Shown here: positions 52,037 through 54,715 of the stretch, in pieces
Numbering within the stretch: position 1 is the first letter of the stretch
Layout: the number at the start of each line of letters is the position of its first letter
Assembly: GCA_029565935.1 (NCBI GenBank)
Contig: JAKQNF010000006.1
Coordinates: 1 to 54,715, forward strand
DNA: 54,715 bases
DNA from: Bacillota bacterium
Lineage (GTDB): Bacteria; Bacillota; DTU025; MWDF01
Reading direction: 5' to 3'
Position numbers and translations under genes: made by a program
The notes under the pieces: model-generated
The model's database searches: none
The model's input: the letters and a program-made list of their open reading frames with translations, nothing else
Told to the model about the DNA's origin: nothing

Positions 52037-52480
52037 ATGAGAAAGAACATTTCAGCCATCATCCTGGCAGCGGCTCTGGTGCTGGCTATATCGGGTACGG
52101 CGGCCGCGAAGTTGCCGGGACATTTTTCGATCAGCGCCAATGGCGGGTACATGTTCACATACGGTGAGCTGGAGCTTGAATACAAAGAGGGCTTGGGGGC
52201 GATCGGGCTTAACGTAGGGTCTGACGGCCTTCTTCTGGAGATAGGCGTCCCTATCAAGTACTTCGTCCCCATCAGCAACGGCTTCAGCTTCTACGTGGAC
52301 GTAAATCCCGCTGCGTTGGTTTGGTTCGCGGGGCCTTCGGTGGAGTTCGGGATAAAAGCCGGTCCTGGCATAGAATTCAGGTCGGGCTTCTTCAAGGCCA
52401 TAGTCGAGGGCGGTTATGCCTATTCGGCGACCAGGGGCCACGGGTTCTATGCGAAGGGCGGCCTGGGCTTCGTGTTCTGA
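52037..52480 (+). CDS. secreted beta-barrel-like protein 1
   Basis: 147 residues. Signal peptide MRKNISAIILAAALVLAISG ending in AAA; mature part about 122 residues with alternating hydrophobic strands, Gly turns and aromatic girdle-like residues (GGYMFTYGELELEYKEG, KYFVPISNGFSFYVDVNP, AIVEGGYAYSAT) and a final GGLGFVF, ending in Phe as outer-membrane barrels do. No known family recognised. First of three tandem paralogs; shares the ELELEYK and GxxxKxGxGxxF patterns with the next two. Ribosome site AAGGAGG. Confidence 0.7.
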   Translation: MRKNISAIILAAALVLAISGTAAAKLPGHFSISANGGYMFTYGELELEYKEGLGAIGLNVGSDGLLLEIGVPIKYFVPISNGFSFYVDVNPAALVWFAGPSVEFGIKAGPGIEFRSGFFKAIVEGGYAYSATRGHGFYAKGGLGFVF

Positions 52481-52549
52481 TCGTTCAGACTCCCGCCAAA
52501 AGCCCGAGCGACAGATAAGGCGACAAATTCTGTTAAGGGAGGTAAGAGA

Positions 52550-53020
52550 ATGAAAAAGGTAGCTCTCATCGCATCACTGGCAGTCATCATGATGTTATTC
52601 ACTGCCTCGACGACCCTGGCCGAAGCTCCCGAGATGTCCATCAACATCAATTCCGGATACTCCTTCACATGGGTCGAGCTGGAGCTGGAGTACAAGACGG
52701 ATCCGTTCGCGTTCGGCGCTCAGGTAGGCTATGGCTATGGCTTGGAGATAGGCGCGTTTGGAAGGTACTACTTCCCTCTCAACAGTTATCTGAACATACC
52801 CGCTGAGTACAGATTGAGTGTGTTTGCTGGTATCACTCCTTCGCTCCTATTGGATTTCACCCCCTCGTTCGGCGCCGGCTTCGGGCTTAAAGTAGGACCC
52901 GGCGTCGACTTCAGGTGGAACCAGCTAAGGGTGTACATCGAAGGTGGATACATGTTCGACACTTTGTGGGGCCCAAGCCATGGCGGATACGGGAAAGCCG
53001 GCATAGGCTATATATTCTAG
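52550..53020 (+). CDS. secreted beta-barrel-like protein 2
   Basis: 156 residues. Signal peptide MKKVALIASLAVIMMLFTAS, cleavage near LAEA. Mature strands: INSGYSFTWVELELEYKTD, GLEIGAFGRYYFPLNS, GLKVGPGVDFRWNQLRVYIE, then GGYGKAGIGYIF at the end (final Phe). Paralogous to the genes on both sides; the repeated VGPGxDFRWxxLRVxxEGG matches gene 3 strongly. Ribosome site GGGAGGT. The gap from gene 1 is 69 nt and holds no terminator. Confidence 0.7.
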   Translation: MKKVALIASLAVIMMLFTASTTLAEAPEMSININSGYSFTWVELELEYKTDPFAFGAQVGYGYGLEIGAFGRYYFPLNSYLNIPAEYRLSVFAGITPSLLLDFTPSFGAGFGLKVGPGVDFRWNQLRVYIEGGYMFDTLWGPSHGGYGKAGIGYIF

Positions 53021-53041
53021 GGATAATAGAAGTTCTACAGG

Positions 53042-53070
53042 AGGGGCGCCGGGCATCACCGGGCGCCCCT
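53042..53070 (+). terminator. hairpin between barrel-like genes 2 and 3
   Basis: AGGGGCGCC (53042-53050) pairs with GGCGCCCCT (53062-53070). A TTCGG follows with no T-run, so it may only partly stop transcription. Confidence 0.5.
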
Positions 53071-53117
53071 TCGGCAATGACGAAGAAATCTGGGATGCTA
53101 CGGACAGGAGGTGAATC

Positions 53118-53570
53118 ATGAGAAAGACGGCAATCGCGATTTTGATGGCATTATTGTTGTTGATCGCATTTAACGTGTCATCTTCAGCGGCCGCGCCTAA
53201 CGAGTTCATGATAGGGTTGAACTCGGGTTATCCGTATACATTACTTGAGCTCGAGTTCGAATACAAGAACGGCCCATGGGCGGGAGGAGCTGACGTGGCC
53301 TGGGCCGGAGGCGCGATGGAGATGGGGATTTTCGGAAGATATTACGTTCCCCTCGGTTTAGGTTTTGATTTCTATGCGGCCGTAAATCCAGGCATGGTTA
53401 TCGTCTTCTCTAGCGTGCCGCCGAGCGTCAAAGGGACGATAAAGGTTGGTCCGGGGTTCGATTTCAGATGGGAACACTTAAGAGTCGGGCTCGAGGGCGG
53501 CATGCTCTATATTTTCGGGCACACGACTCCGAACTTTTATATAAAAGGCGGATTAGGTGTATTGTTCTAG
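53118..53570 (+). CDS. secreted beta-barrel-like protein 3
   Basis: 150 residues. Signal peptide MRKTAIAILMALLLLIAFNV, cleavage near SAAA. Mature part: GLNSGYPYTLLELEFEYKNG, GIFGRYYVPLGLGFDFYAAV, VGPGFDFRWEHLRVGLEGG, and the end FYIKGGLGVLF, again Phe-terminated. Same design as the two preceding genes, so it arose by tandem duplication. Followed by a strong terminator. Confidence 0.7.
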   Translation: MRKTAIAILMALLLLIAFNVSSSAAAPNEFMIGLNSGYPYTLLELEFEYKNGPWAGGADVAWAGGAMEMGIFGRYYVPLGLGFDFYAAVNPGMVIVFSSVPPSVKGTIKVGPGFDFRWEHLRVGLEGGMLYIFGHTTPNFYIKGGLGVLF

Positions 53571-53680: not shown

Positions 53681-53709
53681 TTGACACGAGCCGGCTATGG
53701 TCTTATTAT
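53681..53709 (+). promoter_or_regulatory. promoter for TetR gene
   Basis: TTGACA (53681-53686), 17-bp spacer, TATTAT (53704-53709; one mismatch). The operator at 53713-53730 begins 4 bp after the -10, covering the start site. Confidence 0.75.
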
Positions 53710-53712
53710 ACT

Positions 53713-53730
53713 ATATAACGAACGTTATAT
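53713..53730. promoter_or_regulatory. TetR operator 1
   Basis: ATATAACGAACGTTATAT: 8-bp arms around AA. An identical 18-bp copy lies at 54454-54471. Its position over the transcription start of the TetR gene is that of an autorepressor. Confidence 0.75.
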
Positions 53731-53750
53731 CAGTATCGGGGGCGTAACAC

Positions 53751-54338
53751 ATGGACAGGGCGGAAGCATCCGGGCAAGAAGGGACCAGCACCAAGGACAG
53801 GCTGTTGAGAAACGCCGTATCTATGTTCAGCGAAAAGGGTTTCCACGGGACTTCCATGCGGGAGATAGCCAAGGCCTCGGGTTGCGGCCTGCCGACACTC
53901 TATTACCATTACTCTAGCAAGAGCGAGCTCTTCGAGGAGATAGTCGTGAACCAGTTCCTCAAGATAACGGAGAAGATGAACAAGCAGGTCGATTTTACGA
54001 AGAAGCCGGAGGAGATATACCTGCAGGTCATAAGGACCCGCATCAATCTCGAGGGCTTCGACAGGGATGTATACAAGATGGCGCTTAAGGTATGGCTCGG
54101 CTTCGAGGACAGCGGAAAAGCCAGGGAAAAGGTGCTGGAATGGGAGAACAAGCGCGCCGAATCGAACAGGCGGATCATGGCGAGGGGCATAGCCAACGAA
54201 GCCCTGCGCGAGGACGTCATGGAGATACTAATAAACTACATCGAGAATATGGTGAACAGGATAATATTGCTTGATGAGAATGTAGACGAAGACAAGGTAA
54301 GAAGACAGATATCCCTTCTCTTCGCTATGGGCTTATGA
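53751..54338 (+). CDS. TetR family transcriptional regulator
   Basis: 195 residues. N-terminal HTH: DRLLRNAVSMFSEKGFHGTS, then MREIAKASGCGLPTLYYHYSSKSELF, the typical TetR recognition helix and YYHF-like turn. The C-terminal ligand domain is helical and not typed. Start ATG 53751 with GGGGGCG upstream. The promoter holds an operator whose exact copy stands before the next gene, so it probably represses both itself and that gene and responds to a small molecule. It follows the barrel-like cluster, but a terminator separates them. Confidence 0.93.
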   Translation: MDRAEASGQEGTSTKDRLLRNAVSMFSEKGFHGTSMREIAKASGCGLPTLYYHYSSKSELFEEIVVNQFLKITEKMNKQVDFTKKPEEIYLQVIRTRINLEGFDRDVYKMALKVWLGFEDSGKAREKVLEWENKRAESNRRIMARGIANEALREDVMEILINYIENMVNRIILLDENVDEDKVRRQISLLFAMGL

Positions 54339-54453
54339 CGACACGTCCTGCTATGTCATGCAAACACGTGGATCGGGGGGCTTTGGTTGGAACGATTGGA
54401 GAATCTTGGCCTGATCCATCTCGAATTGGGCGCGGGCTCTTCGTTCATAATAA

Positions 54454-54471
54454 ATATAACGAACGTTATAT
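54454..54471. promoter_or_regulatory. TetR operator 2
   Basis: ATATAACGAACGTTATAT, identical to the site at 53713-53730, directly upstream of the ribosome site of the truncated gene (AGGAGG 54473-54478). A TAATAA-type -10 may lie just before. Confidence 0.75.
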
Positions 54472-54485
54472 CAGGAGGCGTTAAT

Positions 54486-54715
54486 ATGGAACTATTTGAA
54501 AAGGTGAAGCTACTGCAGGCAGTCTACGCCGGGGCTCTTGCCGACGCGGTGCTGCGGTTCGGGCGCGAAGGGATACTGGAGAAGATCACCGCTCAGAAAG
54601 AACTAGAACAGATGGCAGGAGGGAAAGTCAGGGCGGCTCAGCTCGGTATAACCACTAAGGAGGACGTATTCTTCAAGCTGTCGGACTTGATGGGCTGTGC
54701 CCAATGGAAGCTGGA
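54486..54715 (+). CDS. truncated gene under TetR control
   Basis: First 76 codons, cut by the window end. Sequence starts MELFEKVKLLQAVYAGALAD and continues with KVRAAQLGITTKEDVFFKLS and MGCAQWKLE. It is soluble and helical so far. I do not recognise a family. AGGAGG lies 7 nt before ATG 54486. Because its operator matches the one of the TetR gene, it is the regulator's likely target; the full gene is needed to name it. Confidence 0.6.
   Translation, partial: MELFEKVKLLQAVYAGALADAVLRFGREGILEKITAQKELEQMAGGKVRAAQLGITTKEDVFFKLSDLMGCAQWKL

Follow-up and report, generated by a model that had tools for sequence, protein, structure and literature searches.

The stretch of DNA analysed here, the window, is the entire contig C15 (54,715 nucleotides) of a Bacillota genome of 1.80 Mb in 36 contigs. 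Near its right-hand end lies a gene for a TetR-family regulator, followed on the same strand by the first part of a second gene, hereafter the neighbour gene, and the same 18-bp sequence precedes both of them:

53681..53709, plus strand: predicted sigma-A-type promoter of tetR (TTGACA, 17 nt, TATTAT; 11 of 12 consensus matches)
53713..53730, unstranded: putative operator 1, ATATAACGAACGTTATAT, over the predicted tetR transcription start; its 12-bp core is kept in 34 of 36 loci
53751..54338, plus strand: tetR, TetR-family repressor of 195 aa, with Pfam TetR_N and the TetR fold
54454..54471, unstranded: putative operator 2, the identical 18-mer, abutting the ribosome site of the neighbour gene; its core is kept in 34 of 38 loci
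54473..54478, plus strand: AGGAGG, ribosome site of the neighbour gene, read in the sequence
54486..54715, plus strand: 5' part of the neighbour gene, for a cysteine-rich protein of predicted V4R/Bet3 fold, distantly ATC_hydrolase-related; 146 aa at full length, continuing on contig C8

Directly upstream of tetR, at 52037-53570, the window carries three tandem genes for small outer-membrane beta-barrel-like proteins (147, 156 and 150 aa), which stand in tandem also in a sister genome described below.

The 18-mer is an inverted repeat, with 8-bp arms around an AA centre (ATATAACG-AA-CGTTATAT), and its two copies lie 741 bp apart. The first-pass annotation of this DNA had reported identical operators here, and both copies are indeed exact: strand-wise matches with up to 3 mismatches number 4 in the window, against a mean of 0.02 in dinucleotide shuffles of it. 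A scan of the whole genome (1,800,494 bases) for many unrelated copies, proposed in the same annotation, returned exact copies at these two places only. The 12-bp core, TAACGAACGTTA, is likewise confined to them, even when one mismatch is allowed, while a reversed-pattern control gave 3 matches at one mismatch in the same genome. As to position, the second copy stands just before the ribosome site, as had been noticed, a single base separating 54471 from AGGAGG; the first had been described as lying over the start site of the TetR gene, which holds for the predicted transcription start and fails for the start codon, some 20 bp further downstream. Two looser matches were discarded as further sites: the one at C3:931 (2 mismatches) forms the centre of a separate palindrome of 24 bp, GTTATATAA-N6-TTATATAAC, preceding another TetR gene, and the one at C24:112098 (3 mismatches) was taken as due to chance.

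The tetR product matches PF00440 (TetR_N) with 58 bits, the cut-off being 24, and its model (pLDDT 89.1) is an all-helical two-domain fold of nine helices, with 259 PDB matches at E <=0.001, headed by TetR-family regulators. TetR/AcrR regulators are released from DNA by small-molecule ligands, and a ligand domain of its own is predicted for the protein. A palindromic operator at the own promoter, another trait of this family, is present as far as site and promoter are concerned, binding being predicted; site 1 begins three bases after the promoter, and thus covers the expected transcription start. An anti-phage role was also considered and rejected: when five proteins were scanned with PADLOC, the output was limited to two faint rows, both for TetR.

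The neighbour gene runs past the end of the window, as the first-pass annotation had supposed. Its remainder was found, by way of identical residues 31-76, on the minus strand of contig C8, the end of which is identical to the last 141 bases of the window (54575-54715); this exact overlap makes it most likely that the break in the gene is a product of the assembly and does not exist in the organism. The extended gene encodes 146 aa, and is followed on C8 by a convergent AraC-type gene.

The same-genus genome G001 (record L051, Firmicutes bacterium ADurb.Bin153), here called the sister genome, carries both 18-mers letter by letter, along with the tetR promoter hexamers at unchanged spacing. These elements stand out in a comparison where the surrounding non-coding DNA has largely diverged. 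After its neighbour gene, the sister genome has a gene for a 297-aa membrane protein, a relative of which is encoded on contig C3 of the window's own genome, downstream of another TetR gene. In that region (C3:1-5400), the second TetR gene has the palindrome GTTATATAA-N6-TTATATAAC after its promoter, and is followed by CPBP-type genes and by the gene for the related membrane protein.

Scanning a collection of species genomes with an alignment of six neighbour proteins produced 52 loci. In 38 of them a profile search identified a TetR of the window's type beside the neighbour gene, always upstream except in L074, where it lies downstream; the remaining 14 are L053-L062, discussed below, and L076, L084, L097 and L102, which are short contigs or partial matches. 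For each gene, the 150 bp upstream of its start were searched for the best match to the core, for tetR in 36 loci, two having no upstream DNA available, and for the neighbour gene in 38 (the starts of L088 and L100 were set by hand). With at most one mismatch, the core precedes tetR in 34 of 36 loci, being exact in 29 and one letter off in 5 (the other two show two and four mismatches); for the neighbour gene the figure is 34 of 38, made up of 27 exact copies and 7 one letter off, and the other 4 loci show at least three mismatches. It is found before both genes in 30 of 36 loci, and in exact form at both in 22. Among the other upstream regions of the same loci, only 5 of 315 contain it at this level, and three of these look like real sites, before a D-aminopeptidase gene preceding tetR (L066), a CPBP gene (L073) and a YbjQ gene (L074); the last two (L064, L096) belong to frames opposite tetR which share its upstream region. 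L066, with a good site before the preceding gene, was scored as a miss for tetR.

Four loci, L052, L065, L072 and L086, show no good core within 150 bp of the neighbour gene, which counts against the reading proposed below; L065 has a copy with one mismatch 286 bp upstream. In L052, the nearest locus among other genera, genes for a CPBP protein, an FMN-reductase and an FAD-oxidoreductase stand in line after the neighbour gene (L052:4447-7795). By record label the carriers belong mainly to Bacillota, plus Spirochaetota and one member of the Kosmotogaceae; most records are metagenome bins, so that single labels may be wrong.

Promoter sequences were compared at the two sites. In 37 aligned tetR sites, hand-chosen from related loci and the window, TATAAT-like hexamers peak just upstream of the core (5 or 6 letters match in 28 of the 37), the best -10 falling at offset -7 from the core in 30, and the mean best promoter score is 10.16, against 8.10 in shuffled sequences. 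The 37 aligned neighbour sites do not support a promoter (best score 8.24, against 8.09 when shuffled). A -10-like hexamer at +11 after the core, found in 15 of them, comes without a -35; in the window, such a hexamer after site 2 would leave almost no leader. That site 2 has no convincing promoter of its own also counts against the reading proposed below. A terminator-like hairpin separates tetR from site 2 in 12 of the 30 loci examined, where alone separate transcription of the neighbour gene is likely; the scan of the window gave none. Taken together, these observations suggest that the role of site 2 may vary with the genome: control of a separate, weak promoter in some, prevention of read-through in others.

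For the neighbour protein, the best-matched Pfam family is, in most sequences scanned, PF14196 (ATC_hydrolase). The nearest ortholog of the window's protein scores 24.2 bits, below the cut-off of 28.1, which is passed by three relatives from the loci with a sigma factor (36.1, 41.7 and 29.0 bits). No neighbour protein scanned gave a row for Pfam V4R at E up to 1 or 0.1, and PDB sequence searches with the neighbour protein returned no relative. The model of the sister-genome ortholog (pLDDT 95.3), on the other hand, aligns with Bet3/TRAPP proteins and with the phenol sensors DmpR, PoxR and MopR over 133-142 residues, with VIA-align Z of about 10 to 11.4 and Foldseek E of 4.9e-4 to about 1e-2, and less well with H-NOX (Z 6.6); the protein is thus predicted, from its model, to belong to the V4R/Bet3 fold superfamily. 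Cysteines 71, 92, 95, 107, 111 and 140 are among the invariant columns of 45 neighbour sequences; three of them, 71, 95 and 107, may form a zinc site, as in the structures of MopR and PoxR. Excerpts of a paper on archaeal signalling (PMC5847659) treat the ATC_hydrolase, V4R and heme-NO-binding domains as related, with a three-cysteine cluster in common. In MsvR, according to the relevant portion of PMC3729527, the V4R cysteines 206, 232 and 240 influence DNA binding under reducing or non-reducing conditions; their spacing is similar to that of cysteines 71, 95 and 107 of the neighbour.

In the ten loci L053-L062, TetR and its site are absent. Upstream of the neighbour gene these loci have a gene for an ECF-type sigma factor, called at 222-258 aa, and in two of them a CPBP gene separates the two. 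Sigma regions 2 and 4 are above cut-off in both of the sigma factors scanned, two of the ten, and neither gave a Pfam row for a SnoaL-type C-terminal domain; the sigma factors of these loci feature a cysteine-containing tail, of a kind discussed for CorE-like factors in excerpts of PMC8999054. Downstream of the sigma gene, in sense orientation, all ten loci contain TGTCACAA-N14/15-CCAC[T/A] (for example at L053:3918-3945), which occurs in none of the 42 others; in L055 and L056, one TGTCACA stands before the CPBP gene and another before the neighbour gene. TGTCACA is the -35 element published for ECF41 sigma factors (PMC3426412, in part). A tree of 46 neighbour proteins places nine sigma-linked rows on one side (support 100/100), together with three TetR-linked ones, namely the window, L051 and L052, and 34 TetR-linked rows on the other. 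The fewest changes of partner on this tree are three, and the well-supported branches force at least one. The grouping of the window's neighbour protein with the sigma-linked proteins, and not with the main TetR-linked group, is a further point against our reading.

Considering the locus as a whole, the best explanation, and in our judgement a highly likely one, is that of an autoregulated TetR which also controls its neighbour through two TAACGAACGTTA sites. The repressor very probably controls itself and the small, sensor-like neighbour protein, because dozens of distantly related bacteria share the paired sites. The small autoregulated regulon of repressor and next gene, which had been proposed from this DNA alone, hence appears strongly supported by comparative genomics, with predicted sites in 34 of 36 and 34 of 38 loci. 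To the earlier picture we add the great age and wide distribution of the pair, the predicted V4R fold of the target and, in some lineages, a sigma factor as its likely regulator. Binding by TetR, repression, induction and the role of the neighbour we infer as follows. A TetR dimer would bind TAACGAACGTTA at two places, the 18-bp palindrome being an extension of it in this genus. At site 1 the dimer would cover the tetR transcription start and shut the repressor's own promoter; at site 2 it would block transcription into the next gene. A small molecule or a stress cue would enter the pocket of the C-terminal domain and cause release, so that repressor and neighbour would be made together. The likeliest role of the neighbour would be to bind, sequester or modify this inducer, or some related compound reactive toward thiols or metals.

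An alternative that differs in the role of the neighbour only sees it as a sensor or co-regulator, an anti-repressor or a sigma-factor partner, acting on TetR here and on the ECF sigma factor elsewhere. It agrees with the predicted fold, which is that of the phenol-sensing domains of DmpR, PoxR and MopR, with the fact that one protein family has TetR as its partner in 38 loci and an ECF sigma factor in 10, at no fewer than three label changes on the tree, and with the sensing of redox through cysteines by domain relatives in MsvR (PMC3729527, in part). TetR, however, has a predicted ligand domain of its own, and the conserved neighbour gene of ECF41 factors is a target for which no signalling role was observed (PMC3426412); we regard this alternative as possible, if rather doubtful. 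Somewhat more speculative still is the proposal, which we would put forward only tentatively, that the V4R-fold cysteine protein is an exchangeable receptor, joined either to TetR and TAACGAACGTTA or to a cysteine-tailed ECF sigma factor and TGTCACA, and reporting the same redox, metal or xenobiotic signal.

That the sites belong to another regulator, controlling both genes, appears improbable. TetR binding is itself a prediction from the sequence, and one other type of TetR, encoded in a genome of the same order and devoid of the helix signature described here, has about 50 bp upstream a similar perfect palindrome, TAACGTACGTTA (L022:1841-1852). The core nevertheless tracks the TetR of the module, that is, of the TetR-neighbour pair. 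Module TetRs, the window's included, share in their recognition helix a signature of nearly invariant columns, C-x-L-P-x-x-Y; in a set of 30 TetR loci that the genome search supplied, all five bearing the signature have the exact core upstream, against 1 of the 25 lacking it, even at up to one mismatch. The ten sigma-linked loci have no core before the neighbour gene at up to 2 mismatches, and no further site occurs in the rest of the window's own genome. Identity between the window's TetR and most module TetRs is only 23-29%, which weighs against our reading.

In the 39 genomes chosen for holding the module, the exact core is present in 35 and occurs 67 times, nearly always in the module, against 22 occurrences of the reversed control. 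Seven stretches were examined. In G072 further cores precede ABC transporter, nitroreductase and CPBP genes, and those at the ABC transporter and nitroreductase genes, which are preceded by promoter-like sequence (L135:1012 and L136:1005), are a hint of a response to toxic compounds. In G065 a core lies before a D-aminopeptidase gene adjoining tetR, and in G073 the neighbour gene has a tetR-type promoter and core besides site 2, with tetR further downstream. The extra copies of G075 and G096 fall inside open frames and were dismissed as chance matches. A CPBP (Rce1-like) membrane protein often accompanies the module; of the 23 proteins in the CPBP cluster, one is encoded on contig C3 of the window's own genome and the rest in related loci, and Pfam identifies another in L052.

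The orientation of the element bears on whether it acts as DNA at all. The core is symmetric apart from its centre. Of 74 sites, 71 have AA reading toward the gene and none has TT; a symmetric dimer does not require a fixed orientation, which counts against binding by a TetR dimer. At tetR, where normal spacing would put the predicted transcript start near the centre of the core, the orientation could come from A being favoured as the first base of the transcript. The same regularity, with both copies oriented alike with respect to their genes, would suit an RNA hairpin in both leaders, serving as an attenuator or processing site in place of a DNA operator, and the window 18-mer could fold as a 7-bp stem of -3.3 kcal/mol. 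The core alone, however, does not fold, pairing outside it is close to that of shuffled sequence, apart from the first pair at tetR sites, and the predicted start of the tetR transcript lies inside the element, which would therefore not be wholly transcribed; such a hairpin is very improbable. As for recent duplication, a mobile repeat or chance, nothing beyond the two copies 741 bp apart speaks for them, and with 0.02 copies expected in the window, no third copy in the genome, both copies kept in the sister genome and the core found in distant genomes, their probability is close to negligible.

The probable operator, the recognition-helix signature and the predicted core regulon of an unnamed TetR subfamily, spanning Bacillota and, by record labels, other phyla, could thus be read from sequence alone. 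The analysis ties the poorly understood small proteins of ATC_hydrolase/V4R type to gene regulation, and supplies a natural example of a target that stays in place while its likely regulator is a repressor in some genomes and an alternative sigma factor in others. No report of a TetR/V4R-fold module, or of the core TAACGAACGTTA, was found in the literature searched, outside of which one may exist.

QacR, AcrR and MtrR typify the TetR repressors that control their own gene and an adjacent target. The present system resembles this type in the TetR_N domain, the TetR fold and the palindromic sites before the regulator's own gene and its neighbour. It differs in the 12-bp core TAACGAACGTTA, whose AA centre has a fixed orientation, in the C-x-L-P-x-x-Y signature, and in its target, which is a lone V4R-fold protein and not a pump, one genome adding an ABC transporter gene. 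The neighbour is like the V4R-type domains of DmpR, PoxR, MopR and MsvR in predicted fold; unlike them, it is a separate small protein encoded beside the regulator, with no Pfam V4R match. With respect to ATC_hydrolase (PF14196), the window's lineage is below the cut-off, and hydrolase activity is not evidenced by the sequence match. As at the ECF41 loci described in excerpts of PMC3426412, TGTCACA stands before one neighbouring target gene in the sigma-linked loci, the factors of which differ from ECF41 in their cysteine tail, in having no SnoaL row in the two scanned, and in their target. By sequence, the best named match of the window's TetR is B. subtilis RefZ (YttP; PDB 6mj1, E 7.2e-14); orthology was rejected, NCBIfam NF037937 giving 52.3 of 180 bits, far below cut-off. 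Both are TetR-family proteins, and RefZ too binds nearly palindromic motifs; those of RefZ, however, are five and spread over the chromosome, according to excerpts of PMC6657595, whereas the window's TetR has two predicted sites, both before genes.
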